A stretch of 64,000 nt of DNA from a virus. Position numbers and translations under genes: made by a program. Positions 798 to 63,782 of this stretch are shown here, piece by piece. The stretch covers positions 1 to 64,000 of IMG/VR virus record IMGVR_UViG_3300028131_000823; one strand, given 5' to 3'. The notes under the pieces were generated by a model, which saw nothing but the letters and a program-made list of their open reading frames with translations, made no database searches and was not told the origin of the DNA. The first letter of the stretch is position 1; the number at the start of each line of letters is the position of its first letter.

Positions 798-1151
798 ATG
801 AAAGATTATTTTGACAACGAGGATTATGATGATTTGTTTGATGATGAAAACAATAATCGTAGAGGAAGTGAATCATTTAATAGTTTAGATGATTTTAACG
901 AAGCTGATTTTAAAGATTTAATTGAAAAATTAAAAAGGGTTAGAGAAGAACAATTAATTATGGAAAACTATAACAACATTGTAAAACAAGGAGTAGACGT
1001 TGAAGGTATTGCCGAATATGGTGAAGATAATTTAAATAGACTAAAACAGACTCTTGATATTATGATTGAGTTTTTTGAAGATAGAGAAGATTATGAAAAA
1101 TGCCATGATGTTAAATTATTTTCAGATCAAATAAAAGAAATTGAATTTTGA
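798..1151 (+). CDS. Hypothetical acidic protein with C-terminal EDYEKC motif
   Basis: A 117-residue protein. The first 40 residues are very acidic and Asn-rich, followed by helices. The C-terminal part, about residues 82-112, reads TLDIMIEFFEDREDYEKC then a short helix. The same hydrophobic-x-x-FE-x-x-[ED]-[EDQ]-[YF]-EKC pattern ends two other small proteins nearby (2776-3039 and 3298-3564), so the three seem to share one helical module. The stop TGA overlaps the TTG start of the next gene. Function unknown. Confidence 0.6.
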   Translation: MKDYFDNEDYDDLFDDENNNRRGSESFNSLDDFNEADFKDLIEKLKRVREEQLIMENYNNIVKQGVDVEGIAEYGEDNLNRLKQTLDIMIEFFEDREDYEKCHDVKLFSDQIKEIEF

Positions 1152-1468
1152 AAACAATAAAAACATTTGAAAGTTTTATTTCTGAAAAGAAAAAGAATAA
1201 CACTACTACTAAAATAAAAGCTGTAACTAAAAAACAGAAAAAAGCAGTTAAAAAAGTTAAGAAGTTTTTAAAGAAAGATAAAAAAATAACCAGCGACGTT
1301 AAAGATGGTAAAGCAGATAGTTCTGATAAAATGAGAAGTATGTTATTTAAATTACAGGCTAAGGGCGCGAAGGTTGATGTGCAAAAGACTGATTTAAAAA
1401 AGAAAGAATTAGAAGTTAGATCTAAATTAGATACTATTAGAAAATCTAAAAAGAAAGAAGACGAATGA
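1148..1468 (+). CDS. Lys-rich protein with N-terminal capsid-targeting-like peptide
   Basis: A 106-residue, strongly basic protein. The start is TTG overlapping the upstream TGA (TTGA), which gives the N-terminus MKTIKTFESFISE. This closely resembles the T4 internal-protein capsid-targeting peptide (MKTYQEFIAE, from memory) and ends in I-x-E, the T4 prohead protease cleavage pattern. The rest is Lys-rich and probably nucleic-acid binding, as expected for a protein packed with DNA. There is no enzymatic motif. If the targeting reading is right, this is a small internal head protein; it could alternatively be a free DNA-binding protein. Confidence 0.6.
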   Translation: MKTIKTFESFISEKKKNNTTTKIKAVTKKQKKAVKKVKKFLKKDKKITSDVKDGKADSSDKMRSMLFKLQAKGAKVDVQKTDLKKKELEVRSKLDTIRKSKKKEDE

Positions 1469-1749
1469 AATATGTAAAAACATATAACGTGTTTGAACAT
1501 CAAGGAACTGGTGATTCTACAGGTGAAGATTCTAACTTATATAACATTAGGAATTTTAGAGGTACTATAAAGGACTTTGATGCATATTTTAAATCAAAGA
1601 TGGGTGAAACAAATCCATATAAAGATAATATAAAAGTAGAAGGGCCACAAATAGATAGTCCACATGAAGGAGAAAAGGATAATAGTTTGCCTTACCAAGA
1701 TTTTCAAAATGGAAAGTCAGACCTAGTAAAAAACAGATATGGAAAATAA
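1465..1749 (+). CDS. Hypothetical protein (94 aa)
   Basis: An ATGA overlap links it to the upstream gene. The product starts MKYVKTYNVFEH, loosely like the capsid-targeting peptides elsewhere in the window, but it lacks the F-[IL]-x-E end. The remainder is polar and Gly/Asp/Asn-rich with low predicted order. No family recognised. It may be a divergent internal head protein, given its neighbour. Confidence 0.5.
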   Translation: MKYVKTYNVFEHQGTGDSTGEDSNLYNIRNFRGTIKDFDAYFKSKMGETNPYKDNIKVEGPQIDSPHEGEKDNSLPYQDFQNGKSDLVKNRYGK

Positions 1750-1960
1750 TAGACTTACACAAGATCTTTTAAAACAATTAAAGAGAATTGCAGATGCTCT
1801 TGAAAAAGGGAACGTATTAACCGAAGCACAAAATAAAAAATCTGAAAAGTTTAATAAGGTGCAAGAAAAGAAGGCAACTTTAGAATTAAAAGATATTCAA
1901 GAAAAAAGAAAAGTAGGCCAAGTTACTGAGATTATTAATAAGAAACTTGATCAATCATAG
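1739..1960 (+). CDS. Hypothetical coiled-coil protein (73 aa)
   Basis: Overlaps the upstream gene by 11 bases. The product is 73 residues, almost entirely helical in character, with a heptad-like start (LLKQLKRIADALEKG) and a Lys/Glu-rich second half. No family recognised. It lies four bases before dnaJ. Confidence 0.5.
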   Translation: MENNRLTQDLLKQLKRIADALEKGNVLTEAQNKKSEKFNKVQEKKATLELKDIQEKRKVGQVTEIINKKLDQS

Positions 1961-1963
1961 GAG

Positions 1964-2779
1964 ATGAACTACTACAACGTATTAGGCGTAGATAAAGGGG
2001 CATCTGATTCTGAAATAAAGAAAGCATATCGTAAAAAAGCAAAGGAGTATCATCCTGATAAAAACGGCGACTCAGAAAAGTTTAAGGAAGTTAGTGAAGC
2101 TTATGATGTTTTAGGAGATAAAACTAAGAAGCAAAACTATGATCAATTTGGAGATCCTAAGGGAAGTCCATTTAGTGGAAGGAATCCCTTTGGAGGTAAT
2201 GGTGGAAATCCCTTTGGTGGCAGTGGAGACTTTGCAGATATGTTTAATGACATATTTGGAAATAGAAGACAGGCTAAAGGCCAAGACTTTAGAGTTAATA
2301 TGACTATTAGTTTTAATGAAGCCTTTCATGGTTGTCGTAAAGAATTTTCAGTAAATGGACAAAGGCTTGCTATGAATTTTAAACCTGGTATGTTTACTGG
2401 TCAAACATTTAGAATTAATGACAAAGGAGGCACTAACCCCTATAACCCTGATGGTCCTAGAGGGGATGTTATCATAAATGTATCTGTTATACAAGATTCT
2501 AGATTTGTGTTACAAGGAAGTGATATCTGGACTGAATTAACTCTCAACTGGTGGGACATAATGTTAGGTTGTAAAAGAGAAGTTGAAACACCTGATGGCA
2601 AAGTCTTACTTAAAATTCCAGAAAACACATATCCTGGCAGGGTACTGAGGATAGTTGACAAAGGTTTCCCGATATATAATACAACAAACAGAGGAAGTTT
2701 GCTTTGTAGAATTAATGGTAAATGGCCAAAACTTACAGAGGAACAACTTGAACATGTTAAAAAAATAAAAGTAAAATGA
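1964..2779 (+). CDS. dnaJ: DnaJ/CbpA-type co-chaperone (Hsp40)
   Basis: 271 residues. Residues 1-65 form a J domain with the HPD motif at 30-32, which stimulates DnaK ATPase. A Gly/Phe-rich linker follows (about 66-95; [14 protein letters not shown]), then two DnaJ C-terminal substrate-binding beta domains. There is no Cys-rich zinc finger, so it is a class B (CbpA-like) protein. It would recruit host DnaK, perhaps for capsid or replisome assembly. An AGGAG directly abuts the ATG, too close to act as a Shine-Dalgarno. The stop overlaps the next start (ATGA). Confidence 0.93.
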
Positions 2780-3039
2780 TAGGCGAAAGTCCACTTGGTG
2801 AATTTAATGATTTTGAAATGTTTCTAAATATGTTAGTAACTAAACCAATTAATCCTGGTCACGTCTATGAAATGATTTATGATGCTTTAATAAAAGATAC
2901 TTCATATGCAATATATGGAGGTTATCCAAAGGATTTAAAATTAAAAGCCTTAGATTCTTTAATTAATTGGTTTGAATTAACTGAAGAATTTGAAAAGTGT
3001 AAAGAAGTAAAAACTATAAAAGACAAGATATGCTCATAG
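2776..3039 (+). CDS. Hypothetical protein with C-terminal EEFEKC motif
   Basis: 87 residues, starting in an ATGA overlap with dnaJ. Residues about 56-84 read [20 protein letters not shown] followed by a short Lys-rich helix. This matches the C-terminal motif of the proteins at 798-1151 and 3298-3564. The first half ([20 protein letters not shown]) is helical. Function unknown. It sits between dnaJ and the bS21 gene, overlapping the latter by 10 bases. Confidence 0.6.
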
Positions 3040-3221
3040 TAAATGTAAAGAAAGATATAGAAAAGGCGTTAAAGCAATATAAAAGAAAAGTGTTTAAAAC
3101 TAAACAATCTAAGAAAGTTAGTGCAAGAAGACACCATACTAAAAAATCAGTACTCCGTAGAGAGGAAGTCAAACATGCCCAATACGTTGAAAGAATGTAT
3201 GGGAATAAAAATAATGACTAA
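3030..3221 (+). CDS. rpsU: Ribosomal protein bS21 homologue
   Basis: 63 residues, the usual bS21 length and composition. It begins [20 protein letters not shown], the bS21 start (short strand, then helix with A-L-x-x-[YF]-K-R-K), and continues with Arg/Lys-rich helices (SARRHHTKKSVLRREE) ending near YVERMYG, as in Bacteroidota bS21. bS21 binds the 30S platform near the 3' end of 16S rRNA and affects initiation. A phage copy could replace host bS21 and bias initiation toward phage mRNAs. The gene overlaps the upstream gene by 10 bases. Confidence 0.85.
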   Translation: MLIVNVKKDIEKALKQYKRKVFKTKQSKKVSARRHHTKKSVLRREEVKHAQYVERMYGNKNND

Positions 3222-3272
3222 TAATATAATCTATTTTTTTTATTAAACAAGGCTGCCAATAAAAGGTGGTTG

Positions 3273-3285
3273 GAATATATAAATA
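3273..3285 (+). promoter_or_regulatory. Candidate late-type promoter box (GAATATATAAATA)
   Basis: A variant of the GATATATAA box seen before many late genes in this window. It is 25 nt upstream of the ATG at 3298 and follows a 76-bp gap without genes. Confidence 0.4.
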
Positions 3286-3297
3286 AAAGTAAGTAAA

Positions 3298-3564: not shown

Positions 3565-3579
3565 AAAATACCACAATAG

Positions 3580-4272: not shown

Positions 4273-4302
4273 ACATTTTTCATTTTCTTCATATAATAAC
4301 AT

Positions 4303-5503: not shown

Positions 5504-5509
5504 ATTAAT

Positions 5510-6029: not shown

Positions 6030-6045
6030 TTTCATATAAAATTAA

Positions 6046-8065: not shown

Positions 8066-8689
8066 ATGAATACTAATCAAATATTATCATTCGAAGAGTT
8101 TTCAACAAGAGGTACAGATACTGCCACTGCTGAAGCTCCAACAACAGATACTGCCACTGTAGATACTGATACTACTGTTACAGATACTGAAACAACAGAC
8201 ACTGACTCTGAAGAAACAACTGACTCTGAAGAAACAGAAGAAGAAACTACTGATACTGAAGAAACAGAAGAAGAGCCAGTTCACACACACACTCACTCAG
8301 CTGCTGAATCTGTTCAAGTAAATGAAGAAGAAGAAACACATACGACAACAGTTGCTGAAATGTACAAGAATATTAAAGAAGCTTGTAAAAATGAAGCAAT
8401 GGCATATGAAGCTGATGATTATGCAGAACATACAAAAGACACATACATGACTGAAATGGCTACACTTGCTGCTGAAACTGCATGTAATGTTATTCAAGAA
8501 ATGTATGAAAAAGAAGATTGTACAAAAGAACAATATGAAGCTGCATGTAATTCTATAAAAGAAGCTTATGCTAAAAAATGTAACGAAGCATGTGAAGCAT
8601 ATGGTACTTCTGAGAATGAAAGACCTGAATCTGAGAACGAACCAGTTCAAGGTCCAGAAAATTCAATCATTACTAAAACAGAAGCTTAA
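8066..8689 (+). CDS. Acidic Thr/Glu-rich protein, possible head-internal protein
   Basis: 207 residues. The start MNTNQILSFEEFSTRG contains an S-F-E-E-F segment like the capsid-targeting peptides found elsewhere in the window, but lacks the final [IL]-x-E. Residues about 15-75 are low complexity, dominated by Thr, Asp and Glu. A His patch (HTHTHS) follows. The C-terminal half is helical and Ala-rich with seven Cys between about 110 and 185, unusual for a cytoplasmic phage protein. Preceded by a terminator and a late promoter box. It overlaps the next start (TAATG). No family recognised. Confidence 0.6.
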   Translation: MNTNQILSFEEFSTRGTDTATAEAPTTDTATVDTDTTVTDTETTDTDSEETTDSEETEEETTDTEETEEEPVHTHTHSAAESVQVNEEEETHTTTVAEMYKNIKEACKNEAMAYEADDYAEHTKDTYMTEMATLAAETACNVIQEMYEKEDCTKEQYEAACNSIKEAYAKKCNEACEAYGTSENERPESENEPVQGPENSIITKTEA

Positions 8690-12718: not shown

Positions 12719-13157
12719 GGTAGAATGTATATGGTGTAAAACTAAAACTGATTTTAATAGATTTGCAAGAGAAACTAAAAAGTCAGAAGAATATGACAAG
12801 TTTAAAAACCAAATAATTTCTTATAATGAAATTGGAGATAGACTTTCTAAGAGTGATCCTTATGGAAATACTCCATCTGAAACTTTAGTTGCTTTACATA
12901 TACAAAAATTAATACGAAATCTTGTTAATAAAAATAGGAGAGTAGAAGAAGAAGTTGAAGAAGATCAAACTGCAAAGGTTACATATCTTCTTAAAAACTT
13001 AAATCAAGAAAATGTACTAAATTTTAAAAACTTTATTAATGAAATAGCTGATGGAGTAGAGTTTGAATTAGTAGTTATTAATAGAGAAGATAAATTAGAT
13101 CCTAAAGTATTGAGTAAATTCGATAACGTTAGAATTGTAGACAATGATAAGACATAA
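12708..13157 (+). CDS. Hypothetical protein with CxxC (149 aa)
   Basis: The ATG at 12708 gives MNLKVECIWCKTKTDFNRF. An alternative upstream start at 12675 would add 11 residues inside the previous gene. A single C-x-x-C pair near residues 7-10 could bind metal with other ligands, but no second pair is seen. The rest is charged and helical and ends in a beta-like segment (EFELVVINRED). No family recognised; it overlaps the next gene by 14 bases. Confidence 0.55.
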   Translation: MNLKVECIWCKTKTDFNRFARETKKSEEYDKFKNQIISYNEIGDRLSKSDPYGNTPSETLVALHIQKLIRNLVNKNRRVEEEVEEDQTAKVTYLLKNLNQENVLNFKNFINEIADGVEFELVVINREDKLDPKVLSKFDNVRIVDNDKT

Positions 13158-46693: not shown

Positions 46694-47062
46694 ATGAAAA
46701 CATTTATAGAATATTTAGAAGAAAACAGAGTTACTGAAAAGGAAATGCAACTTTTAACAGAAGGACTTCAACAAGAATGGACTCCTGAACTAGAAGAAAA
46801 AGTAGATAAAGCAGTTGATGAATTTTTAAACGAATACAGAGATAAAAATGGAGACTTAGATGTTGATAGATTTAATAATGAAATGACTAATGAAGGTCTT
46901 TTAGGTTCCATTGTAGGTGGTCTTGCTGGATTTGCTTTAGGAAAATCTATTGGAAAAATGGTAGCTAAAGTATTAGGTGTACAAAAAGGTATTCTATATG
47001 ATTTATTAACTTCACGACTCGTTGGAACTGCAATCGGAGCTTCAATCGGTAAAAGGTTTTAA
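46694..47062 (+). CDS. Capsid-targeting-like peptide plus glycine-zipper membrane protein
   Basis: 122 residues. The N-terminus MKTFIEYLEE is close to the T4 internal-protein targeting peptide and contains L-x-E. A helical acidic region follows (about 20-65). The C-terminal half has two glycine-zipper segments, LLGSIVGGLAGFALGKSIG (about 69-87) and GTAIGASIGKRF (111-122), typical of membrane-inserting helices. It may be a head-packaged protein that enters the host membrane, or a membrane protein acting at lysis. No family recognised. Confidence 0.55.
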   Translation: MKTFIEYLEENRVTEKEMQLLTEGLQQEWTPELEEKVDKAVDEFLNEYRDKNGDLDVDRFNNEMTNEGLLGSIVGGLAGFALGKSIGKMVAKVLGVQKGILYDLLTSRLVGTAIGASIGKRF

Positions 47063-52259: not shown

Positions 52260-52994
52260 ATGGAAACACAAATTCAATCATTTGCTACATTTTCTGAAAC
52301 TAGAAAAGCAGCAATAGACACTAAGATAAAAGAAGAAGCGTCTACAAAGAGAACAACTGAAGCTCAAAGATTTGCTGACTTATTAGCTGAGTATGAAGTA
52401 ACCACTGTTGCTGAAATAGCTGAAGAACAAAGAACTGAATTTTTTGCTAAATTAGTTGGAGAAACTGATGAGGTAGAAACTGAAGGTAATGCATTTGGAG
52501 CAGCTGTTAAAAAAGCAAAAGAAGAAGATAAAGAAGAATTTAAAGTAGGCGGAGAAACTTACAAAGTAGAAGAATCAACAGTTACCGAAGCTAGAGCTAA
52601 ATATGTAAATACACAAAAAACAGTAGATGGTAATCCATTAATATCTTTTAATAGCTCCACTACTAGAGCTAAATGGATTGATGAAAATAAATCAAATGTT
52701 ATATCTGTACCTGATTCAACGGTTATTAATTCCGATCAAGGTAGAGTAGTAGGTTCTAGTAGAGGTCCTTATTACTTAATCGTAAAGGCAGATGTACTAG
52801 AAGAATCTAAAGTTGAAGAAGCTGAAGTTAAGTCTGATGAAGATTTTATGGAGATGGCTATGACAATGTATAAAGAAGCATTCGGTGATGATTTTGACGA
52901 GGCTAAAGCTAAAGAAGCTGCTGAAGGAATGTTAAAGAAAGCTGATGGAGACTATGGAGCTGCTGTAGGAATGTTACAATCATCTTTAGGATAA
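52260..52994 (+). CDS. Probable head-cargo protein with weak targeting peptide (244 aa)
   Basis: 244 residues, charged and Ala-rich. The start METQIQSFATFSE resembles the F-x-x-F-x-x-E targeting peptides but with S-E at the end. An internal VTEAR near residue 105-111 recurs in the 59139 protein and may be a protease site. A central beta region (VISVPDSTVINSDQGRVVGS) is followed by an acidic helical C-terminus (about 198-244) of UBA-like size. No family recognised. First gene of the late cluster. Confidence 0.55.
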   Translation: METQIQSFATFSETRKAAIDTKIKEEASTKRTTEAQRFADLLAEYEVTTVAEIAEEQRTEFFAKLVGETDEVETEGNAFGAAVKKAKEEDKEEFKVGGETYKVEESTVTEARAKYVNTQKTVDGNPLISFNSSTTRAKWIDENKSNVISVPDSTVINSDQGRVVGSSRGPYYLIVKADVLEESKVEEAEVKSDEDFMEMAMTMYKEAFGDDFDEAKAKEAAEGMLKKADGDYGAAVGMLQSSLG

Positions 52995-53009: not shown

Positions 53010-54275
53010 ATGTTATTAACTTACGAACAATTTCTAGTCGAAAAGGCTCAGATAGTAGAGGGTAATTTGATTTTAGAAGGAGGAGCTGCAGGCCACATGC
53101 CTCATCCCTTTGACTATAATGATTTAACTTTCCAAGATTTTAAAACCATTGTTACAAATTCATTACAAGGTGAAATACATTTTGAAGAAGGACCTACTGA
53201 AAAAACAGATGGTCAAAACTTCTTTGTTACAGTAAAGGATGGTCAAGTTCTTTTCTCAAGAAACAAAGGGCAACTAATGGCACCTGTATCTTTAGATGGA
53301 GTTATTAAAATGTTCACGGGCCATGCATCAAAACTAGTAGAAGATACTTTTATCTATGCTGCAACAGATTTAGAAGCTGCATTATTAAGTTTAAGCGATC
53401 ACCAAGAATTTAACAATGGACAAAACTTTCTTAATATGGAGTTAATTTATTCTAAGAACCCTAATGTGATTAATTATGACAGAGATGTTATTCAATTTCA
53501 CGGCATGGCAGAAACTGATGGCAAAGGTAATATAGTTAACATGTCACAGCAAACAGGTGCAAAACTTGCAAGACTTCTTAAAGGTATAGAGGCAGATGTA
53601 CAAAAGACATTTACAATTATTCCTCCACAAATACTTAAACTTCAGAAAAACATAGATTTTGAAAAGAGACAAAGTTATTATCACAGTAAATTAAATGACT
53701 TAAGAGATGAGTTTAATTTATCAGACGGTGACGAAGTTAAAATGTATCATGAAGCATGGTGGAGAAGAGAAATTGAAAAAGATTTTGCAGATATTTCAAG
53801 TGATTTAAAAGAAGGTTTATTTTTAAGATGGGCATACAATGACAAGCAAACTATGAATATGGTTGCTATGAAAAAGATTGCTACTCCCGAACAAATGAAA
53901 AAAATCAAAGAGTTTGATAAGATAAAAGGTAAAAAGTATAAGCAGAATATTTTACCATTTGAAAACTTATTTTTAGAGTTAGGAAAAGATGTATTATTAA
54001 ATGCAAGTAATTTTGTTGCTGCAAATCCTGATTTAGAAAAGAAAAACTTACATGCTAAAATTAGAAAGGCAGCAGCTGACGTTAAACTTAACGGTGACTT
54101 AAAGCAAGTTGCTAAAATCGAAGCTGAATTAGAAAGATTAGAAAGTATTGGAGGTATCGAAGGTATTGTACCAACTGAGGGAATAGTCTTTAAATATAAA
54201 GGTAAGATTATGAAACTTACCGGCACATTTGCTGCAATTAATCAGCTTATGGGCATCATAAAATACGGAAGATAA
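53010..54275 (+). CDS. Ligase-like nucleotidyltransferase with capsid-targeting peptide
   Basis: 421 residues. The N-terminus MLLTYEQFLVE matches the targeting pattern (F-L-x-E). The nucleotidyltransferase motif I is EKTDGQNFF with the nucleotide-attachment Lys at about 65 (K-x-D-G). NMELIYSKNP (about 142) fits motif III, and TEGIVFKYKGKIMKLTG near the end (about 391-407) fits motifs IV and V. This is the core of ATP-dependent DNA/RNA ligases. The long helical insert between motifs is unusual. It may repair injected DNA ends or host RNA at the start of infection. Substrate unknown. Confidence 0.7.
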   Translation: MLLTYEQFLVEKAQIVEGNLILEGGAAGHMPHPFDYNDLTFQDFKTIVTNSLQGEIHFEEGPTEKTDGQNFFVTVKDGQVLFSRNKGQLMAPVSLDGVIKMFTGHASKLVEDTFIYAATDLEAALLSLSDHQEFNNGQNFLNMELIYSKNPNVINYDRDVIQFHGMAETDGKGNIVNMSQQTGAKLARLLKGIEADVQKTFTIIPPQILKLQKNIDFEKRQSYYHSKLNDLRDEFNLSDGDEVKMYHEAWWRREIEKDFADISSDLKEGLFLRWAYNDKQTMNMVAMKKIATPEQMKKIKEFDKIKGKKYKQNILPFENLFLELGKDVLLNASNFVAANPDLEKKNLHAKIRKAAADVKLNGDLKQVAKIEAELERLESIGGIEGIVPTEGIVFKYKGKIMKLTGTFAAINQLMGIIKYGR

Positions 54276-54282
54276 ATATACT

Positions 54283-56241
54283 ATGATAATTAATTATAAT
54301 CAATTTATTTTAGAAAACGAAGATAAGGAATATGAGAAGTTAGATGCGAAAGCAGGTGACATGTCAAAAAAGTTAACCGATAAGGAGAGAGCACGTTATA
54401 AAGAATTAAGTAAAAAACATTTCCCAATAGTTATTAAAAAATTACCTGGAGATGTTTATGAAATTAAGACAGTAGGTTTAGGATATACAGGCCCACAAGG
54501 AGATGTGTTAGCAGAATATTATAGAGAAGAAATTTTAGCAAAGGTAAAAAATCCAAAAGGTATTCACATGGATATTAGAAGAAATGATGGAGGACAACAG
54601 GCTCCAGCTAAGGCAATATTGGATTTTTTTGTAGATACACCTAAAGACGAAGATGGAAATAGAAAAATTCCATTAGAACAACAAAGTAATTATTGGCCAA
54701 CTGATGAATGGACAGATGAAGATAGAGAAAGAGGTTATCAATCGAAGACTAATTATTTAGAAAGTAAAATAGAAGATAAGAATAAATTTACAAATATACC
54801 TACAGTGGTTTCCACAAGTGATTGGACATTTTCAGGAGGTGAATTCTTAACTGACACTATAAAAAACTTTGGCAAAGACAACATTACACACGTTGGCTCT
54901 AATTCAGGAGGAGGAGCAAATAGAACGTCACATACTGCCGACGACATGGCATCAACTTGGCCAGATGAAGATCCAAATGCTGAAGGATTATCAGTTGATG
55001 AAAAGTTAGAAAGATCAATGAAAGTATTTGAAAAGTTTTATGTAGATAAAGAAAAAGCCAAAGAATGTAGAGAAGCAGTTATGAAAGATCCTAGTAAATA
55101 TATTAAGGATGGAAAAATAAACGATAAAACAGTTCAAGACAAAATGCGTGAAATTACAAAAGATTTTCATGTAGCATATTTTACAAGAGAAGATGGAAAA
55201 ATTGAAGTAGCGACGCCTTATGGAAAATCTGATAGGATAGTAACTGATAAAGATGGTAAGCCATTTGGACCTCCTTATGAATTTAAAGGAAATTGGGAAG
55301 GAACAGGAACAGGAAATGCAGTACCAGGAATAGGAATTACAGAAACAGATCCAGATACTGCTAAAAACAGCGCATTAGAATTACTATATACAAAGACTGG
55401 TCAGAAAGATCAGCTTGAAAAAATGAAATCAAATCCAAAAGAATTTGGTCTTACTAAAGACGGCAAAGATGATTGGTATAAAAGAGGTACACTTGCAGAT
55501 AGAGAAGCAGGTAGAGAACATAATTACCCAGGATATGCAGCTGAAGGAAAACACCCTGAAATGTGGAAAGCTAGCCAAAAGGCAGCAAGTAAAAATATGA
55601 AAAACTGGAAAAGCATTCTTAAAAAAGCAGAGTCTAATAAAAATATAGATGATAAATCTAAACCAGAGCCTGAAAATTGGTGGGAAGAATACAGTGATGA
55701 AGCAAAGGCCAAATATATTAAAAAACACGGAGAGGCTCCAGACGTCGGTAATAAAGTAAAACCAACTAATGAAAATAAAAGAAATATTATGAAAAAGGTT
55801 AAACTATTTGAAGAATTCTTAAATGAATCAACAATGAATAATTTTAAACCCGAGGTATTGTCTAATAGAGATAAAGTAGATATGAAGCTTTTTAAAAGTT
55901 TAATGCCTAGAACTGCTAAAACGGTTAAAGACGCTGATCGTAGAATTCAAACATGGAAGGGTAATAAAATGTTTGTACATTATCAAGCATTTACAGTTCA
56001 ACCAAATGGTAATAAACCAGATTTACCAACATATAAGTTCCATAATTCACAATATTGGTTAAACGATACTCAATTAGGTTGGGCAGGTAGAGCAGGTGAA
56101 AAGGTAAACATCACTTTATTAACAATAACTGATGTAACTGATCCTGATAATGAAAAAATGTTAGGAGAACTTTATGTTAATACCGATACATATTTACAAG
56201 AACACAATATAGTATTTAACGAGTTAAAGAAAATATCATAA
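54283..56241 (+). CDS. S41-type protease fused to a second cargo domain, with two targeting peptides
   Basis: 652 residues. The N-terminus MIINYNQFILE is a targeting-like peptide. Residues 50-370 resemble tail-specific S41 proteases: GIHMDIRRNDGG at 93-104 (oxyanion-hole region), STSDWTFSGGEFLTDTI at 177-193 with S184 as probable nucleophile, and a C-terminal PGIGITETDPDTAKNSALEL. A second targeting peptide, MKKVKLFEEFLNE, starts at residue 503 (base 55789) and precedes a separate 140-residue beta domain. The layout suggests two head proteins fused in one frame and separable by the prohead protease. An internal start at 55789 is the alternative. Confidence 0.68.
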   Translation: MIINYNQFILENEDKEYEKLDAKAGDMSKKLTDKERARYKELSKKHFPIVIKKLPGDVYEIKTVGLGYTGPQGDVLAEYYREEILAKVKNPKGIHMDIRRNDGGQQAPAKAILDFFVDTPKDEDGNRKIPLEQQSNYWPTDEWTDEDRERGYQSKTNYLESKIEDKNKFTNIPTVVSTSDWTFSGGEFLTDTIKNFGKDNITHVGSNSGGGANRTSHTADDMASTWPDEDPNAEGLSVDEKLERSMKVFEKFYVDKEKAKECREAVMKDPSKYIKDGKINDKTVQDKMREITKDFHVAYFTREDGKIEVATPYGKSDRIVTDKDGKPFGPPYEFKGNWEGTGTGNAVPGIGITETDPDTAKNSALELLYTKTGQKDQLEKMKSNPKEFGLTKDGKDDWYKRGTLADREAGREHNYPGYAAEGKHPEMWKASQKAASKNMKNWKSILKKAESNKNIDDKSKPEPENWWEEYSDEAKAKYIKKHGEAPDVGNKVKPTNENKRNIMKKVKLFEEFLNESTMNNFKPEVLSNRDKVDMKLFKSLMPRTAKTVKDADRRIQTWKGNKMFVHYQAFTVQPNGNKPDLPTYKFHNSQYWLNDTQLGWAGRAGEKVNITLLTITDVTDPDNEKMLGELYVNTDTYLQEHNIVFNELKKIS

Positions 56242-56252
56242 AATTATAAGAA

Positions 56253-58091
56253 ATGGCATTACAGGATTTAAGAACATATTATGAGTCAGTTGAAAAAGAG
56301 GATTTTAATAATCTCTTAGCACAGAAATGTTTAGTTACTGAAAAGATTCAAGCAAGTAGTCTTCATGTAAGAAGAGAAGATAGACTCTTAGAATTTTATA
56401 AATCAGGTAATAAGCAGGCTCTTAATAAAATAGATAGAACAATTGTTTCTTACTATGAAAAAGGTATAGGCCATTTTAAAGCATTATTAGACGAGACTAT
56501 TCAACAGATGCCAAGTGATTGGAAATTTGGATTTGATTATATGGTTAGTGAAAAGACAGTAGACATTGAATATGATACACTTCCAAAAAATAGTCTTATA
56601 TTAACACATATTCAAGTATTAAATGAAGACAGAACCCAGATTAAAAAAGTAATTAGAGATCCTAAGATTTTAGAAAAATGGGCTAATCTTTTAGAAGTTC
56701 AATCGCCTGAGGTTGTTTATGAAGGCATCCTTTCAGATCACCAAAAGGAAAAGTTAGTTAATATACTGAGCTTACAAGGAGAGCAAGCAAAAATAGAATT
56801 ACAAGATTTTGGTTTTTCTTATAGAGCATTTACAACATTTAACGAGTCAATTCATAAGTCAATGTTAAACAATGATATTCATAAAGACATTGATGGATTA
56901 GTTGTAAGTTTTGTAGAGGGCAAATCATTAAAGAACTTTAAACTACAGAGTCCATTAAAAGAAATTAAAGAACAAGAAGAAAGAAAGAGTTCGGATGCGT
57001 ATCAAATTACCGTAGTAAAACTTATTGAATATTTTAATGCGTTTGATTTTAGTGAAATACAACTTGAAAGTAAAGAAGTTGATGAGAGATATTTAGAATT
57101 AATGACAGCAGGTTTTAATTCATTTATAAAAGATAATGGAGCAAGCTTTATTGGCATGAATTTTGATAGCGCAGAGTTTGCAAACAATGAAGCATTTGAT
57201 TTAAATCCAAAAATGATAACAAATCAAGAAACTATTAGGCTTGTTAATGAATCAAGAGAAGTCGCAGAATTATTAAAAATAACATTAGGTACTTTTAGAA
57301 AGAAGAGACAGAAAGAAAATGGAGTTTTAGCAGGAGATGCATTTAATAGTTTAAACGGTATTATAGAAAAGATTGAAGCAAGAATTTACGAAAAAGTAGA
57401 GGAAGATAGTGTAATGGATTTTAAAACATTTAAAATTAACGATACACTTAAGGGACAAACAAATCCAATTAACGAAGGTTTAAAAGTAAACCATCCTGAA
57501 AGAGGAGCTAAAGAAGTTAATATGTTTGTTGGTAGGTTTCAGCCATTCACATTAGGACATGTTAAAGTCGTTGAACATTTGCATAAACAAAATGGACTTC
57601 CAACTGTTATATTTTTAGTTAAAGCTAAAAAGAAAAAGAAAGAAGACAGTTTTAAAAGACCATTTGATGAAACAATGCAGGTAAATATGATAAAACAGGT
57701 GATGAAGGAATATCCTATTGAGACAGTGTATGTTATAGATACCGCAGCAATTGACAAAATGTTTAATGCTATGAGACCTAAGTATGAACCTGTATTATGG
57801 GGAACAGGTAGTGATAGAATGAAAACATATGGCTATCAAGTTAATAACCCAAAATATAGAGGAGAATTAGGAGTTGAAGATAGCTTCAGATTAGAAGAAA
57901 TTCCAAGGACAGACGATAACATTAGTGCAACAAAGGTAAGAAACGCTTTATTAGATGGAGACGAAAAGACATATAAGTCCATGACTCCAAAATCTATGCA
58001 CAAAATGTATAAATTATTAAAACAAACAATGGAAGAAAGTGTTGAACTACAAGAACAAGTTTTAACATTTTCAGAATTTAAAAGCAAATAA
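56253..58091 (+). CDS. Ligase-like domain fused to NMN adenylyltransferase-like domain
   Basis: 612 residues. The N-terminal 230 residues look like a nucleotidyltransferase: TEKIQASSLHVR at about 29-40 (motif I K-x-Q-x), FGFDYMVSEKTVDIEYD (motif III), HKDIDGLVVSF (motif IV) and NFKLQSP (motif V). After a helical middle, residues about 424-600 form a cytidylyltransferase fold: MFVGRFQPFTLGHVKV at 424-439 with the LGH nucleotide motif, and ISATKVRNAL at 557-566. The last part is the NadM/NMNAT type that makes NAD. It ends LTFSEFKSK, which resembles part of the targeting peptide. Ligation coupled to NAD or adenylate metabolism is possible. Confidence 0.65.
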   Translation: MALQDLRTYYESVEKEDFNNLLAQKCLVTEKIQASSLHVRREDRLLEFYKSGNKQALNKIDRTIVSYYEKGIGHFKALLDETIQQMPSDWKFGFDYMVSEKTVDIEYDTLPKNSLILTHIQVLNEDRTQIKKVIRDPKILEKWANLLEVQSPEVVYEGILSDHQKEKLVNILSLQGEQAKIELQDFGFSYRAFTTFNESIHKSMLNNDIHKDIDGLVVSFVEGKSLKNFKLQSPLKEIKEQEERKSSDAYQITVVKLIEYFNAFDFSEIQLESKEVDERYLELMTAGFNSFIKDNGASFIGMNFDSAEFANNEAFDLNPKMITNQETIRLVNESREVAELLKITLGTFRKKRQKENGVLAGDAFNSLNGIIEKIEARIYEKVEEDSVMDFKTFKINDTLKGQTNPINEGLKVNHPERGAKEVNMFVGRFQPFTLGHVKVVEHLHKQNGLPTVIFLVKAKKKKKEDSFKRPFDETMQVNMIKQVMKEYPIETVYVIDTAAIDKMFNAMRPKYEPVLWGTGSDRMKTYGYQVNNPKYRGELGVEDSFRLEEIPRTDDNISATKVRNALLDGDEKTYKSMTPKSMHKMYKLLKQTMEESVELQEQVLTFSEFKSK

Positions 58092-58092
58092 G

Positions 58093-59103
58093 ATGAGTAT
58101 AAGAACAGATTTTCAAATATTATTAAATAAAGCTATTAAAAGAGAAGATCTTTTAGTAGAAGGAAATATAGGTAAGTATCAATCACTAGGAAGTTTAAAT
58201 AATTTAAAGGCAAAGCAACAAATGTTTGACCTTATTAACAAAGATTATTTTAAAGGAAAATCTCCTTTTTCAAAGAGATTAACTTTAACAGAAATAGATG
58301 ATTCTACAATGCAAGAAGTTTTTACATTAATGAGTGAAGATATTGATGCAGCAAATACAATATTTAATTTAAAAAGAACAGGTATTGGTTCAGGTGAAAT
58401 ATTAATGGCATACCTTGTTGAAAACTTAGTAATAGGAGGAGGTAGTGCAGATGTAGACTTAAACTTATTCGATCCAAAGTCGGGTAAATTTTTAAGTGCT
58501 GGAATAGCAGAATTAAAAGAGGTTACAAGAACAAATGATGGTTTTTTAAAAGGTTGGAGAACAGGCGCAAGGCACGCTGCAATTAGAGCACAGGCTATTG
58601 CGGATATTAGAAATTTATATTTAGCAGTTAGGGATTCTATTACTGAATTAGACCCTACTACAAAGGCTGGTCAAGCTGCAGCAATAAGTGCAGCAAAAGG
58701 AGAATATTCAGCACTACTTAAATATTTTGAAGACCTAGATGCAATACCAGCAGCAGCTGATAGAGATTTTAAACTTAAACAAGGTACAAAAGGTGAAATA
58801 ATCGTAAAGTTTCAAGGGAATGTAATAGGTAATATTGGTGACGCAAAAACAATTTCAGAAATTAATAAGATTTTAAGTCAAGATGTTAATACGAATGTAA
58901 AAACTTATAGGCAAATCGAAGAAGAAGTGGCAAAAGGGTTTGGAGATATAGATGAAAAGTTTGTATTTATTAGAACTACAGGAAAATCTGAAAAGAAAAA
59001 GATACAAGGTATTTATTATAAGGAAAAATTACCTGATAATGCTAAAGAATTAAAAATATCAGAAGTCACTCAAAATACGATTAAAGTTAAAGTAAAAATT
59101 TGA
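58093..59103 (+). CDS. Hypothetical protein with nuclease-like pattern (336 aa)
   Basis: 336 residues. Residues about 98-145 (GIGSGEILMAYLVENLVIGG, then ADVDLNLFDPKSGKF, AGIAELKEV) show a G-x-G-E helix, an acidic strand and an E-x-K strand, an order like PD-(D/E)XK nucleases. An arginine-rich helix follows (RTGARHAAIRAQAIADIR). No targeting peptide is obvious, though DLLVEGN near residue 20 contains L-x-E. It lies inside the cargo cluster. The nuclease reading is tentative. Confidence 0.5.
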   Translation: MSIRTDFQILLNKAIKREDLLVEGNIGKYQSLGSLNNLKAKQQMFDLINKDYFKGKSPFSKRLTLTEIDDSTMQEVFTLMSEDIDAANTIFNLKRTGIGSGEILMAYLVENLVIGGGSADVDLNLFDPKSGKFLSAGIAELKEVTRTNDGFLKGWRTGARHAAIRAQAIADIRNLYLAVRDSITELDPTTKAGQAAAISAAKGEYSALLKYFEDLDAIPAAADRDFKLKQGTKGEIIVKFQGNVIGNIGDAKTISEINKILSQDVNTNVKTYRQIEEEVAKGFGDIDEKFVFIRTTGKSEKKKIQGIYYKEKLPDNAKELKISEVTQNTIKVKVKI

Positions 59104-59110
59104 TATATAA
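59101..59110 (+). promoter_or_regulatory. Candidate late promoter TGATATATAA
   Basis: Located 37 nt before the ATG at 59139; the box starts at the stop codon of the preceding gene. Confidence 0.6.
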
Positions 59111-59138
59111 TAGATAGGACAAAAAATAAAGAAAAAAA

Positions 59139-61592
59139 ATGGCAACATTCGAAGAATTTTTAAACGAAAGAAATATAACTCTTAAAAGAAGATATACTGA
59201 ATCACACCCTTCCCAAACTGTAGGCAATTCAGCTAGAGTTAGAAATGCAATTATCGAAGCATTAAAGGATGGCAAAATAACAGTTGAAGAATTTAATAAT
59301 ATAGTTAGTCAACACTCTTCTGCTCCATCAAAATGGACAAGAGGTAATAAAAGATTTTTCAAAATAGAAGAAGATGGCGTAAGTCTTTCTAAATATGGAA
59401 CAAAAATATTAAATAGCTTAGTTACTGAATCTATAGATGAAGGTTTAAATAAGTCAGATGTTACATATCAATTAGCAATAGATTATACAGGTAGAACTAA
59501 GCCGAAAATTACTAAACTTAATAAGAAAAGACTTGAAATTAAGTACGGTTATAAAATTAGCCCAGAAACGGTAATTGATTCTATCAAGAAGGTTCATCCA
59601 GAAGTAGAACTTAAACATGTTGAATGGTCAGATAAAATGTCAGGTGGAGGTTTTCACATATTTGATATTTTAGAATCTGCAGTTACTGAAGGAACATATG
59701 ACTCAAAAGATCATATAGGATCTACATCAGATGGACAAGGTTCTAATGCTGAGATTTATAAAAAAGGTAGAGGATATTATGTAGTTGTTAGTGGAGAGTA
59801 TGATTATGACTTCGAGGCTAAGAATGACAAAGAACTAATAAATAAGTTAGAAGAATATGAATTTGATTCTTCTGATATTTTAGAATCAGCGATTAATAAT
59901 ATAGAAGAAAATATGATACATAATAATTTTAATGAATTCATTAATAAATCAATTAATGAAAATAACGTACAGGATTTAGATATGGAAGATATGAATCCTA
60001 AAATGGCTAAGCAGCTATTAAACATGGCTAGTAAACAATATAAAAACGAATTTCAAGGATCTTATACTGTAGATAAAGGAAATAAAAAAATGAGGTTTGA
60101 TACTTATAGTGCTTTATTAGCTATGGTAAAGCAAAAAGATTCTGGACCTTATGGTCCTTCATATGGTATTAATATTGGAGGAAATAATGAATTAGAAGAT
60201 TTTGAAGGTAATGTTTTAGGTAAGCTAAATGATAAATCATTATCAAGTGCAATTAGTAGTGTTGCAGCTGCTATGAAAATGGCAGCTAAAAACAGTAATG
60301 AATCAGTAGTTACTGAAGCCAGAGTAAGTGCAAAAAAGTTATTAAAATCAGTTGTAAATGGAGAAAGTAACTCAGTTGAAGGTATTAAACTTTCTAAAGA
60401 AATGGCCCAATCATTTTTAGAGTGGCTAGATCAATCAAGTTATGGTAGAAAATTTAGCGATCTTCCATTTGATAAATTATTTAGTGCAGCATTTAATTGG
60501 GGTATTGAAAGATATGCTAAAGACAATAAACTGAAAAATGAATTAAAAGATTTAAAAACAAAGGCAAAAACAATGAAAGAATCAAAAATATACGAAAGTT
60601 TCAGTGAATTTGTTAATGAATCTTTAGAACTTAATGAAGCATTAAAGAGTTCTAAACTTAGAGGACTTCTTACTATGAAAAGAGGTAGTAAGGCAATTTT
60701 AAAAGCAATTTATGGCTTTAGTAAAATAGAATTAGACAAAATAACAGATGATCAAATAATAGATATTGATCCTAAATTAGGTAAAAAAGCAGAAGGTTTA
60801 GTTGTTTATTATACAACTCAAGAAAAAGACAACCCTTATGCTGATACTTCAAAATCTACATATAATTCTGCTGGTAAAATTCCAGCAAATACAATACTTG
60901 CATTAGGTATGGGAAAAGACGTTGCATATGTTAAAAGAGATTATATTAAGAGAAAAATGACAATGTCTTTAACTACAGATCCTAGAAAATCATCTTATGA
61001 TATTGGAATTAATAAAGAGTATAGAGGCTGGGACGCATCCGGTATTTATAATGTAAAAAGAGTAATTGATGTTGCAGACGCTGCATTTGTAATTAATACT
61101 AACGCTCTTCCAAATACTAAAGGAAAAATTGAAGACAGAGTAAAAGCTAAAGAAGGTGCATTAGCATTTAAATCTGATAAGGAATTTAAAGATGCAAACA
61201 TAGCAAGATATAGAGAAATTCTACAAAAGAGAGCAAGTGAATTACCAATAGATAAATTAGTAGAAGATGCAATTGATGATGCAACTAAGGTTATGAAAGA
61301 TGGTTTAAAAAATCAAGAAAAAAATAAGTACGGAGAACTTATTGCAGGTGTAGGAAAGGACGGTAGAGCTTATAAATTAAATGACATTAGTAATTTTATA
61401 AATGGTTTAATTTCAGACTATGAAAGATGGTCAGGTTATATGGCAACAATTGAAGAGGCTGAAGCTAAATATGGTAAAGATTCTAGAGAATTTGAATGGG
61501 AAGCTAGATATTCTCAAAAAGAATCTGAGGAATACGCAAAGAGAATTAAAGATAAATTAGCTAAACTTAAGAAAAGAAACTTAGCTTGGTAA
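59139..61592 (+). CDS. Large head-cargo polyprotein with three targeting-like peptides (817 aa)
   Basis: 817 residues. Targeting-like peptides start at residue 1 (MATFEEFLNE), residue 259 (MIHNNFNEFINKSINE, base 59913) and residue 479 (MKESKIYESFSEFVNE, base 60573); each begins with Met. Candidate protease sites of V-T-E type recur (SAVTEG, SVVTEA, LVTES). The segments between are about 220-340 residues: a mixed alpha/beta N-terminal part, a helical middle and a large C-terminal domain (AEGLVVYYTTQEKDNPYADT; VIDVADAAFVIN). No catalytic motif was recognised in any segment. Best explained as fused head proteins. Its stop overlaps the next start. Confidence 0.6.
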   Translation: MATFEEFLNERNITLKRRYTESHPSQTVGNSARVRNAIIEALKDGKITVEEFNNIVSQHSSAPSKWTRGNKRFFKIEEDGVSLSKYGTKILNSLVTESIDEGLNKSDVTYQLAIDYTGRTKPKITKLNKKRLEIKYGYKISPETVIDSIKKVHPEVELKHVEWSDKMSGGGFHIFDILESAVTEGTYDSKDHIGSTSDGQGSNAEIYKKGRGYYVVVSGEYDYDFEAKNDKELINKLEEYEFDSSDILESAINNIEENMIHNNFNEFINKSINENNVQDLDMEDMNPKMAKQLLNMASKQYKNEFQGSYTVDKGNKKMRFDTYSALLAMVKQKDSGPYGPSYGINIGGNNELEDFEGNVLGKLNDKSLSSAISSVAAAMKMAAKNSNESVVTEARVSAKKLLKSVVNGESNSVEGIKLSKEMAQSFLEWLDQSSYGRKFSDLPFDKLFSAAFNWGIERYAKDNKLKNELKDLKTKAKTMKESKIYESFSEFVNESLELNEALKSSKLRGLLTMKRGSKAILKAIYGFSKIELDKITDDQIIDIDPKLGKKAEGLVVYYTTQEKDNPYADTSKSTYNSAGKIPANTILALGMGKDVAYVKRDYIKRKMTMSLTTDPRKSSYDIGINKEYRGWDASGIYNVKRVIDVADAAFVINTNALPNTKGKIEDRVKAKEGALAFKSDKEFKDANIARYREILQKRASELPIDKLVEDAIDDATKVMKDGLKNQEKNKYGELIAGVGKDGRAYKLNDISNFINGLISDYERWSGYMATIEEAEAKYGKDSREFEWEARYSQKESEEYAKRIKDKLAKLKKRNLAW

Positions 61593-62098
61593 TGAACGAA
61601 AACGTTACACCAGCAAATATTGGAGGTATGGGAAATCCTGCCTTTCCACAAGGTGGAGAAGTAGGAAGTGGAGATGTGCCAGCTGGTAAAGGAGATGCTA
61701 AGAAAGAGCAAAAGAAAAAGAAGAAAGAAAGAGAAGAATATCTTAAAAATAGAAAAGAAGAAATGGTACATACTACATTTAGTGGATTTATAAATGAAGC
61801 TAAAATTAAAGATGCTAGAAAAGATTTAGGCTATATTGCATTTCTTGAAGAAATGGCAGAAATTAATAATAGAGACATTCAAAACGCATATGATGTTGCA
61901 CTAAAAGTTTTACAAGATAAAGGTATGAGTGAAAAGGAAGCAATTGGATTTTTAAACTCACCACATGGAAAGTATATGGCAGAATATTTAATTCCAGGTC
62001 AAGATTATAGTCATGAAGCATTCTTAGACAAATTAGATGAATACTATAACGAAAGAATGTTGAAACAATATGCAAAGGATTTTAAAAACCTAGCATAA
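61592..62098 (+). CDS. Protein with internal targeting peptide (168 aa)
   Basis: The ATG at 61592 overlaps the upstream stop (TAATG); a TTG six bases upstream is a less likely start. Residues 1-57 are Gly/Lys-rich and disordered. MVHTTFSGFINEA starts at residue 58 (base 61763) and is very close to the T4 targeting sequence, including the Ala after the cleavage Glu. The C-terminal 100 residues are helical (YIAFLEEMAEINNRDIQNAY). It could be a scaffold-like leader fused to a cargo, or the inner Met could be the true start of a 111-residue internal protein. Confidence 0.6.
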   Translation: MNENVTPANIGGMGNPAFPQGGEVGSGDVPAGKGDAKKEQKKKKKEREEYLKNRKEEMVHTTFSGFINEAKIKDARKDLGYIAFLEEMAEINNRDIQNAYDVALKVLQDKGMSEKEAIGFLNSPHGKYMAEYLIPGQDYSHEAFLDKLDEYYNERMLKQYAKDFKNLA

Positions 62099-62120
62099 GA
62101 ATAAGTTAGTATTTATAATT

Positions 62121-62154
62121 AAAACCCAAGTTCTCGCAGATCTTGGGTTTTTTT
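62121..62154 (+). terminator. Rho-independent terminator
   Basis: AAAACCCAAG at 62121-62130 pairs with CTTGGGTTTT at 62142-62151 around an 11-nt loop, followed by T. It ends the head-cargo run and immediately precedes repeated promoter copy 3. Confidence 0.8.
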
Positions 62155-62240
62155 GTTAATAACTTTAGTAAAAAAGTTGCCTCAAAATTTTCACGGGTCA
62201 AAGATTATAGTTATATTAGTATTATAATTAAAACTTAAAC
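62153..62240 (+). promoter_or_regulatory. Repeated promoter element, copy 3
   Basis: TTGTTAATAACTTTAG, then TTTTCACGGGTC at 62188-62199, AAAGATTATAG, TATATTAG at 62212-62219 and TATTATAATTAAAACTTAAA. Spacing equals copies 1 and 2 apart from one base. It precedes the gene at 62244. Confidence 0.65.
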
Positions 62241-62243
62241 TAG

Positions 62244-62519
62244 ATGAGCTATACAAATTTTAACAGACATGAATCAATGAATTCAGAAACTAGAAAAGAA
62301 ATCATGAACTTAATTAATGATTTAATAAATTACGATGAACAAATAGATAAAAAATTAAGAAGATCTATTGAAAACAAATTATATGGTTTATTTGATGGTT
62401 ATTTATATGATAAACTTCAATTGAATGCATTAGAATGTCCAAGTGATTTAGCAAGTAGAATTATGAAAATATATCATAAATGTGCAATGTACCCAAAGTC
62501 AAAAACAATTATATTTTAA
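62244..62519 (+). CDS. Hypothetical helical protein (91 aa)
   Basis: 91 residues, mostly helical (KEIMNLINDLINYDEQIDKK), one Cys pair spaced far apart. It is the single gene under repeated promoter copy 3, so it may be expressed early like the secreted protein under copy 2. No family recognised. Confidence 0.55.
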   Translation: MSYTNFNRHESMNSETRKEIMNLINDLINYDEQIDKKLRRSIENKLYGLFDGYLYDKLQLNALECPSDLASRIMKIYHKCAMYPKSKTIIF

Positions 62520-62521
62520 TC

Positions 62522-62531
62522 TGATATATAA
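62522..62531 (+). promoter_or_regulatory. Candidate late promoter TGATATATAA
   Basis: Located 35 nt before the ATG at 62558, starting two bases after the preceding stop. It heads three consecutive small genes with targeting peptides. Confidence 0.6.
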
Positions 62532-62557
62532 TATAATATTAAAAATAAAATAACAAG

Positions 62558-62980
62558 ATGAACAATATTAAGAATTTTAACGACTTTATTAATGAGTCTC
62601 AAGAAATAAACGAAGGTACTCGTTCTCAATTTGGAAAAATTGATAAAAAAGGAAATATAACTTCAGTTTATATGCATTATGATGGTTATCCAGAAAACGT
62701 ATTACCTATTTTAAGAAAAGGTTATAAAGGTGGAAAAAATGTAGATTATGTACTTTCACAAGGAAGTGGTTCAGGTCTTGAAGTAAATCCTAAGAAAATT
62801 AACTTTTATAAAGATGATAGAGATTCTCAATCAACTGGTAATGTTGCAACAATTGCAAATTATTTATCAGATGTAGAAGATGATGGTGGAGCAGAATACG
62901 TTTATTTATGGGATGAAAGATCAAAGCAATGGATGATGGCATCTTATGGTGAAAGAGACTTAAAGGTTGCAGAAGTTTAA
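62558..62980 (+). CDS. Small head-cargo candidate with targeting peptide (140 aa)
   Basis: 140 residues. The start MNNIKNFNDFINE is a clear targeting-like peptide ending I-N-E, followed by EINEG. The body begins GKIDKKGNITSVYMHYDGYP and contains LPILRKGY and YLWDERSKQWMMASYG, a beta-rich fold of about 115 residues resembling small uncharacterised phage/bacterial proteins with a HYDGYP motif, as I recall. No enzyme motif. Confidence 0.65.
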   Translation: MNNIKNFNDFINESQEINEGTRSQFGKIDKKGNITSVYMHYDGYPENVLPILRKGYKGGKNVDYVLSQGSGSGLEVNPKKINFYKDDRDSQSTGNVATIANYLSDVEDDGGAEYVYLWDERSKQWMMASYGERDLKVAEV

Positions 62981-62996
62981 AAAAATTAAAGTAACA

Positions 62997-63308
62997 ATGA
63001 AAAACGTAAAATTATTCGAAGAATTTATAAACGAAGATATTGACTCAAATAAAATATTTGAATTAACTGAACTAGAAAAAAAAATTAATGGCTTTACAGG
63101 CCAAGCACAGGTAAAAGCTAAAGTTGGAGTAACGACATTTTCTGTTTCAAAATACATGATAGTGTTTGATTATGACGAAGCTAATAAAGATTTACCATTT
63201 GTATTTAGACCAGATATGAAATCTGCAAAAGTAGCAAAGGATAAATTAGAAAAAACTGACATGTTTACTCCTGAAATGAACTTAAGAATTGAAGAAATTA
63301 AATATTAA
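62997..63308 (+). CDS. Small head-cargo candidate with targeting peptide (103 aa)
   Basis: The ATG at 62997 gives MKNVKLFEEFINEDIDSN. A TTG start 30 bases upstream would overlap the previous gene and is not favoured. The remaining 90 residues are a compact alpha/beta domain (VSKYMIVFDYDEANKDLPFV). No family recognised. The first 13 residues are nearly identical to those of the next gene, although the bodies differ, which argues that the peptide is a mobile tag. Confidence 0.65.
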   Translation: MKNVKLFEEFINEDIDSNKIFELTELEKKINGFTGQAQVKAKVGVTTFSVSKYMIVFDYDEANKDLPFVFRPDMKSAKVAKDKLEKTDMFTPEMNLRIEEIKY

Positions 63309-63326
63309 AATTAAAAAAACAAAGTT

Positions 63327-63782
63327 ATGAAAAATATAAAATTATTCGAAGAGTTTATCAATGAAAACGATATGATGGCTACAACGCCAGCAGAACTTAA
63401 AAAAATGGCTAAAAAATTTAAACAAATCCATTATGACATGGCCTCCGGTGATTTTGAAGAGGAAGATATAGATGCAAACTTTAAATTTATAACAGACTTT
63501 CTTGGAACAGACCAAATAGTTGAAATAGTTGGAGGAGACCATTGGGCTAATCATTCTTCTGGAAAAGAATTAACAGACATTTATAATGATTTAATCACTA
63601 AGATTAAAAACAAGAAAGACCATGAATTAGATTCAGGAGCAGACTATGTTACAGGTACATTAAATGGAGCAAAGGTAGTTTGTCAATACGATGGTTACAG
63701 TACCCCTACTCATTTATCAATTATGATAAACGTTAATGACATTAAAAAGTTTGACATTAAAACAACACCTTTTGTAGTTTAA
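63327..63782 (+). CDS. Small head-cargo candidate with targeting peptide (151 aa)
   Basis: 151 residues. MKNIKLFEEFINE at the start differs by one residue from the upstream gene's peptide. The body has an acidic helical part and a beta part (GADYVTGTLNGAKVVCQYDG; LSIMINVNDIKKFDI). No family recognised. Ends before a terminator. Confidence 0.65.
   Translation: MKNIKLFEEFINENDMMATTPAELKKMAKKFKQIHYDMASGDFEEEDIDANFKFITDFLGTDQIVEIVGGDHWANHSSGKELTDIYNDLITKIKNKKDHELDSGADYVTGTLNGAKVVCQYDGYSTPTHLSIMINVNDIKKFDIKTTPFVV

Follow-up and report, generated by a model that had tools for sequence, protein, structure and literature searches.

A T4-like internal-protein leader on many unrelated proteins and putative polyproteins of a marine phage

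The window analyzed here is a stretch of 64,000 nucleotides that forms the start of the 204,977 bp IMG/VR record IMGVR_UViG_3300028131_000823, a genome of about 205 kb. Its subject is a set of genes whose products begin with a short peptide, referred to as the tag, that ends in FxxF[IL]xE or a close variant. Eight genes in the window have clear tags at their start sites, the one at 1148 by way of a TTG start codon (Table 1). A preliminary description had listed 14 such peptides, and translation places all of them at the positions and in the frames reported. The two weak versions among them, at 8066 and 52260, possess FxxF and lack [IL]xE. The four that had been located inside longer open reading frames (ORFs) are indeed in frame there (55789 in ORF 54283-56241, 59913 and 60573 in 59139-61592, and 61763 in 61586-62098), but they are joints within longer proteins and not nested genes. 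At 59913, FNEFINK is followed by SINE, so the Glu comes four residues late.

The rest of the genome was surveyed by pattern searches and by reading in stretches, and the statistics refer to 104 kb with the 106 genes of an automatic list, from which the tags of 1148 and 62997 are missing because of start or overlap choices. Beyond the window there are another six tags at gene starts, so that the genome has at least 14 (8 in the window and 6 elsewhere), each 10-14 amino acids (aa) long and all on unrelated proteins. One of the six, on the gene at 135007, is a near-copy of the tag at 1148. The motif [FY]xx[FY][ILV]xE is present within the first 15 residues of 8 of the 106 genes. When the first 25 residues are shuffled in 2000 rounds, the count averages 0.24 and never exceeds 3, and the interior rate of the motif, itself inflated by real internal tags and scaffold repeats, predicts 0.96. 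One interior match, FKNFINE at 13023, is taken as a chance occurrence.

The motif search that the preliminary description had proposed for the whole genome and its relatives reveals, beyond the six tags just mentioned, that the relatives are tagged likewise. Counts of tag patterns locked to an ATG cover 17 records. For a single spacing as many as 14 matches are found in relatives, almost always on the coding strand (11/0, 0/14, 0/7); with the pattern reversed as a control, the main spacing yields 0-2 matches and the other up to 3. The same patterns are matched 3 to 4 times in T4, 0 to 1 times in Tenacibaculum phage PTm1, and never or almost never in two other marine T4-like phages. Two relatives have nearly consecutive tagged genes with unrelated bodies: 14 within 7.1 kb in G002 (L167) and about ten in G001 (L168).

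Table 1. Tagged genes, polyprotein modules and neighboring features. Coordinates are window positions unless marked as genome positions; a slash marks a predicted cut site.
Feature	Coordinates	Strand	Evidence or remark
Tagged gene, TTG start, MKTIKTFESFISE, Lys-rich 106 aa body	1148..1468	+	Translation
Weak tag MNTNQILSFEEFSTR, acidic Thr/Glu-rich body, doubtful member	8066..8689	+	Translation
Tagged gene, MKTFIEYLEE, glycine-zipper body	46694..47062	+	PF13488, E value 6e-5, just under cut-off
Short polyprotein, weak tag SFATFSE, module ARAKYVNTQKTVDGN...DVLEES between VTE and VEE sites	52260..52994	+	
Tagged gene, MLLTYEQFLVE, second site LILE/GGAAGHM	53010..54275	+	Ligase-like nucleotidyltransferase motifs EKTDG, MELIYS, PTEGIVFK
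Fused tagged gene, MIINYNQFILE, S41-peptidase-like domain, tag MKKVKLFEEFLNE (55789), second body	54283..56241	+	PF03572, E value 8.6e-5, just under cut-off
Second tagged module of fused ORF, tag MKKVKLFEEFLNE	55789..56241	+	
NMNAT/cytidylyltransferase-domain protein, C-terminal FxxF peptide LTFSEF	56253..58091	+	PF01467, E value 4e-8
Gene starting MSIRTDFQILLNK, second kind of leader	58093..59103	+	
Polyprotein ORF, 817 aa, about six modules, tag MATFEEFLNE at start	59139..61592	+	
N-terminal polyprotein tag	59139..59168	+	
Module 1 (ITLKRRYTE...), end VTE-S-IDE	59169..59441	+	
Module 2 (GLNKSDVTYQL...), end ILESAVTE	59442..59690	+	Modules 2 and 3 in swapped order in L094
Module 3 (GTYDSKDHIGS...)	59691..59912	+	
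Degenerate internal tag FNEFINKSINE and module 4 (...YKNEFQGSYTVDKGNKK...), end NESVVTE	59913..60317	+	Missing in L092, stand-alone tagged gene in L267
Module 5 (ARVSAKKLLKS...)	60318..60572	+	
Internal tag FSEFVNE, then SLELNE site	60573..60638	+	
Module 6, terminal 317 aa, ALKSSKLRGLL...KKRNLAW	60639..61589	+	Fold not recognizable
Second tagged ORF, 59 aa leader domain, FSGFINE at 61763	61586..62098	+	Modules behind vary in relatives
Tagged gene, MNNIKNFNDFINE	62558..62980	+	phrog_1987, E value 9e-16, function-unknown family
Tagged gene, MKNVKLFEEFINE	62997..63308	+	Translation
Tagged gene, MKNIKLFEEFINE	63327..63782	+	Translation
Start-site tag MILQYNEFLTE	genome 70228		Outside window
Start-site tag MKIKTFNQFITE	genome 85253		Outside window
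Start-site tag MKYTKLFEEFVNE	genome 110575		Outside window
Start-site tag MKTIKTFESFVNE	genome 135007		Outside window
Start-site tag MKYLRLFEEFIVE	genome 150704		Outside window
Start-site tag MKTYEEFINE	genome 176438		Outside window

The genome possesses T4-type head genes, among them the portal (PF07230, E value 5e-49) and the major capsid protein (PF07068, E value 8e-44). The closest matches of the capsid protein are in an uncultured 462 kb phage (50%), the Prevotella Lak phages (about 36%) and PTm1 (33%), and these nearest matches suggest that the host is a member of the Bacteroidota. T4 internal proteins IPII and IPIII start with MKTYQEFIAE/A, and T4 gp23 holds FGSFLTE/A (both read from NC_000866); the resemblance to T4 leaders noted at the outset is borne out, the tags of this phage being near-identical to MKTYQEFIAE. 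In the capsid protein of the phage a candidate cut site, GINE/A, was discarded as unconserved in relatives; an [IL]NE at its start and KLYE/D are conserved.

A protease of the gp21 type, on which the original proposal depended, is present. The gene at genome positions 85645-87543 encodes a fusion of S77 protease (PF03420) and scaffold, 632 aa long. In the alignment its His78 and Ser133 match His85 and Ser140 of T4, which we take to be the catalytic pair of gp21. Its scaffold-like tail has seven [YF]xx[YH][ILV]AE repeats (for example YTKYLAE, YSEYLAE, YTEHIAE and YANYIAE) that resemble the tag. An S77 protease occurs in 17 of 17 records (this genome and 16 others). Between portal and protease, where the core genes 67 and 68 are located in T4, there is a gene with FxxF and then [ILVF]xE in all 57 non-redundant relatives, the second directly after the first in 42 of them; among background ORFs the corresponding values are 14% and 6.6%. 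The tag is thus placed, by position, in the head-core operon. In L066, L030, L043 and L032 cargo modules are inserted between the tag and the body of this gene, and one of the inserts in L066 is a module of the second polyprotein of L092, L093 and L097.

The tag on the head-core gene and the tag-like repeats on the fusion could also mean that tagged proteins are packaged as scaffold or core and are degraded and expelled during head maturation, as are T4 gp22, gp67 and gp68. The T4 counterparts of the core gene and of the scaffold are cut to small peptides (PMC5694885). Small size is also seen in some modules, and an acidic or lysine-rich composition in several of the tagged bodies. The nature of the other bodies makes this improbable. 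Acb1 is an anti-CBASS protein. Tad3 is an inhibitor of type I Thoeris. Pfam identifies Tad3 (67.9 bits) and an Acb1/2H-phosphoesterase (28.3 bits) among the tagged bodies of G002, each against a cut-off of 27, and on tagged genes of the relatives it also identifies GNAT acetyltransferases and a zeta-toxin-like kinase. Folded enzymes and anti-defense families such as these make no sense as scaffold, and the cargo differs between close relatives whereas the core body is conserved.

Of 18 records, 5 have Tad3 and 6 have an Acb1 that exceeds the cut-off. A tag is present on each of the seven Tad3 relatives. The Acb1-like family comprises 80 loci, in which near relatives have MKHIKLFEEFVTE, MKRIKLFEEFMNE, MIKLKDLITE or an FIKE leader directly before a conserved YxYGC start, and the most distant members start at the body itself. 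As the preliminary description held, the bodies behind the tags are unrelated, and between relatives they are exchangeable behind a common leader. In the interval between the homologs of the genes at 53010 and 56253, for instance, the content of tagged genes differs among genomes. L264 has a zincin-like gene there, whose relative in the present genome, at 176438, carries a different tag; L263 has the 55789 piece as a separate tagged gene; and L267 has module 4 of the window polyprotein as a stand-alone tagged gene.

The polyprotein ORF has counterparts of 678 aa (L092), 706 aa (L093), 866 aa (L094), 1170 aa (L095) and 1104 aa (L097). The first and last modules are common to these five versions, and the inner modules differ in set and order. 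The modules meet at joints of the form ES-x-[VIL]-[TND]-E (ESAVTE, ESVNE, ESVSIDE, ESLELNE); among 2637 ORFs, four or more such joints are found only in polyprotein genes. The families of the first and last modules are located elsewhere, or in separate tagged genes, in L108 and L118. Coarse clustering, in which single linkage over-merged the largest family, gives a rough number of 11 module families that are found singly behind a tag as well as in multi-module proteins. The module of the short polyprotein at 52260 recurs within the L095 polyprotein, and extended versions of that gene are present in L286, L295 and L296. Searches of the polyprotein modules against Pfam, PHROGs and PDB produced no confident family, two polyprotein queries had zero matches among 50,697 phage records, and the predicted structure of the terminal module (predicted local distance difference test, pLDDT, 72; predicted template modeling score, pTM, 0.50) had no significant PDB match.

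It is unlikely that these ORFs are incidental in-frame fusions in which internal ATGs at the tags start separate proteins. A Met does open the internal tags at 55789, 59913, 60573 and 61763, and L263 encodes the 55789 piece on its own; against this, the relatives maintain unbroken frames of 678-1170 aa, the Met before the FQQF tag has been lost in L097 and L093, and a start codon is absent from most joints (ESAVTE, ESVNE).

The ends of homologous segments often coincide with putative protease sites. Of 168 internal homology breakpoints in 22 proteins, 48% are no more than 6 residues from an [ILV]xE, compared with 23 ± 3% for random positions (z score 7.6, which overstates independence because the polyproteins are related). 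Control motifs, which carry an equal bias, have no excess ([ILV]xD, xK, xQ, xN, [AGST]xE, [KR]xE and [DE]xE, z scores -1.9 to 1.2). The DNA coding for the joints consists of short direct repeats, such as GAATCTTTAGAACTTAATGAAG, which occurs twice in L095, and these repeats are a plausible substrate for the gain and loss of modules.

These observations bear on whether the peptide might be some other sorting or regulatory signal (for a membrane, a replication compartment or a translation-start context) and the [ILV]xE joints ordinary flexible linkers. N-terminal amphipathic peptides have many sorting roles in general. Such a signal is nonetheless very hard to reconcile with a motif common to the head-core gene, the scaffold and the T4 internal proteins, or with the absence of a breakpoint excess at the control linker motifs. 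The constraint also acts on the peptide. Codon identity among tags is as predicted from codon usage in two of three sets and slightly above it in the third (z scores 0.3, 0.7 and 2.2) with F, [IL] and E fixed, so the peptides look selected and not freshly copied, and likeness through DNA copying is mostly rejected. In the family of the gene at 53010 the 15 leaders are highly divergent, yet F (P4) and E (P1) are invariant, P3 is only I or L, and P2 and P6 are free.

Every check of the preliminary interpretation that sequence allowed was in its favor. From all of this we infer with considerable confidence that the phage has an enlarged, modular version of the injected internal-protein system of T4, in which tagged proteins would be packaged, cleaved and injected. 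The N-terminal FxxF[IL]xE peptide would bring a protein into the prohead core, and the gp21-type protease, fused to its own scaffold, would cut after [ILV]xE and take off the tag; polyprotein modules would be released by cuts at ES-x-V-[TN]-E joints. The freed proteins could then remain in the head with the DNA and enter the host at infection, where at least some would block host defenses before phage genes are expressed. The tag, the protease site and the module behave as independent units, which suggests that new cargo may arise when a body is placed behind a tag or when modules recombine at the linkers that code for the sites. The T4 internal-protein biology behind this scheme is described in PMC9026906, PMC5694885 and PMC12373910. 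The sequences show the tags, the protease, the matching motif in scaffold and core gene, module exchange and breakpoints at sites; every step after translation (packaging, cleavage, injection and defense evasion) is inferred, the last from T4 Ip1-3 and from the Tad3 and Acb1-like proteins that carry tags in relatives.

Several points weigh against this scheme. Presence in virions and the cut ends are themselves predicted from sequences, the relatedness of the proteins makes the breakpoints less than fully independent, and the tags at 8066, 52260 and 59913 are degenerate. Tad3 and Acb1 were searched for in this genome and neither was found, and the tagged proteins of the window have no recognized anti-defense domain. 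A further step, which we favor with more reserve, is that the maturation protease serves as a dispenser: counter-defense effectors would be kept as shuffling "beads on a string" polyproteins, loaded by one tag, cut in the prohead and renewed by recombination at the linkers coding for cut sites, so that a virion would deliver combinatorial dozens of them.

The system appears to be a variant of a known one, a common leader on unrelated internal proteins being established in T-even phages. In the open-licence literature we found no account of tagged arrays this large, of Tad3 or Acb1 behind a tag, or of capsid polyproteins with several modules. For T-even phages, 10 or more internal proteins with one shared leader are reported, and injected T4 Ip1-3 inhibit GmrSD (PMC12373910); the possession of several tagged proteins is thus no novelty in kind. 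IPI, IPII, IPIII and Alt share with the present proteins a near-identical leader (MKTYQEFIAE/A compared with MKTYEEFINE/A and MATFEEFLNE), the gp21-type protease and unrelated bodies behind a common leader. Unlike them, the present system has at least 14 start-site tags in one genome and, in a relative, as many as 14 tagged genes in a single array, together with multi-module polyproteins with protease-site joints, a tagged core-operon gene with inserted cargo, and tagged bodies that include Tad3, Acb1-like, GNAT, kinase and ligase-like proteins. In giant phages of the phiKZ/SPN3US type a gp21 relative processes many inner head proteins after Glu and proteins are ejected, as is proposed here, but the propeptides are mostly longer than 100 aa compared with tags of 10-14 aa; shuffled multi-module cargo is not described in the portions of that source drawn on (PMC5694885). 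PTm1 has a single gene annotated "prohead core scaffolding protein and protease" that can be aligned with the present fusion, but it has almost no ATG-locked tags (0 and 1 for two patterns). For DarA and Hdf of P1 we know of no common short tag. These packaged anti-restriction proteins are likened to the present ones by their description as anti-defense proteins associated with heads (PMC12810830).

The tag turns the question of which phage proteins enter with the DNA into a sequence search over thousands of uncultured T4-like Bacteroidota phages, and tagged proteins become prime candidates for counter-defense factors whose action precedes phage transcription. That such prediction works is suggested by Tad3 and the Acb1-like proteins. 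The polyproteins would represent a new way to make and renew injected effectors and a natural plug-in packaging system.

The genes next to the tagged ones have related features. The window NMNAT gene and its 28 homologs end in [ILF]TFxxF in 27 of 29 proteins (LTFSEF, LTFEQF, LTFDDF), the other two having MTF, and this peptide looks like the tag moved to the C-terminus, behind a variable linker. It may be speculated that the NMNAT protein supplies nicotinamide adenine dinucleotide (NAD) during infection, possibly against NAD-depleting defenses. A second leader, MSIRT[DNS]FQI.L or GDI[KR]ARFA..LNK, precedes bodies without detectable similarity at 58093-59103 in the window and at L264:9544 and 11436, L266:10281, L095:8388, L288:9229 and L296:9187. 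For L288 and L296 the BLAST match is limited to residues 1-18. For the ligase-like protein at 53010, Pfam and PDB sequence searches gave no match, and its model (pLDDT 65) places T4 RNA ligases 1 and 2 near the top of the structural matches at insignificant E values of 0.18-0.85. The ligase-like, S41-peptidase-like and NMNAT-domain genes are clustered at 53010-58091.

The glycine-zipper gene at 46694-47062 adjoins the preceding run of structural genes and is found in relatives too. In L170 it is kept at the equivalent place with the tag MKTFFEYLSEE, and its product is possibly a membrane-active injected protein. Other marine T4-like phages (G008/G009; L125-L161), whose S77 protease is of normal size, have the module at residues 460-534 of the L095 polyprotein within large proteins that lack a tag. 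Low-complexity repeats, noticed through repetitive overlapping ORFs, are located at genome positions 81242-81651 (L002) within a 491 aa ORF at 80550-82025.

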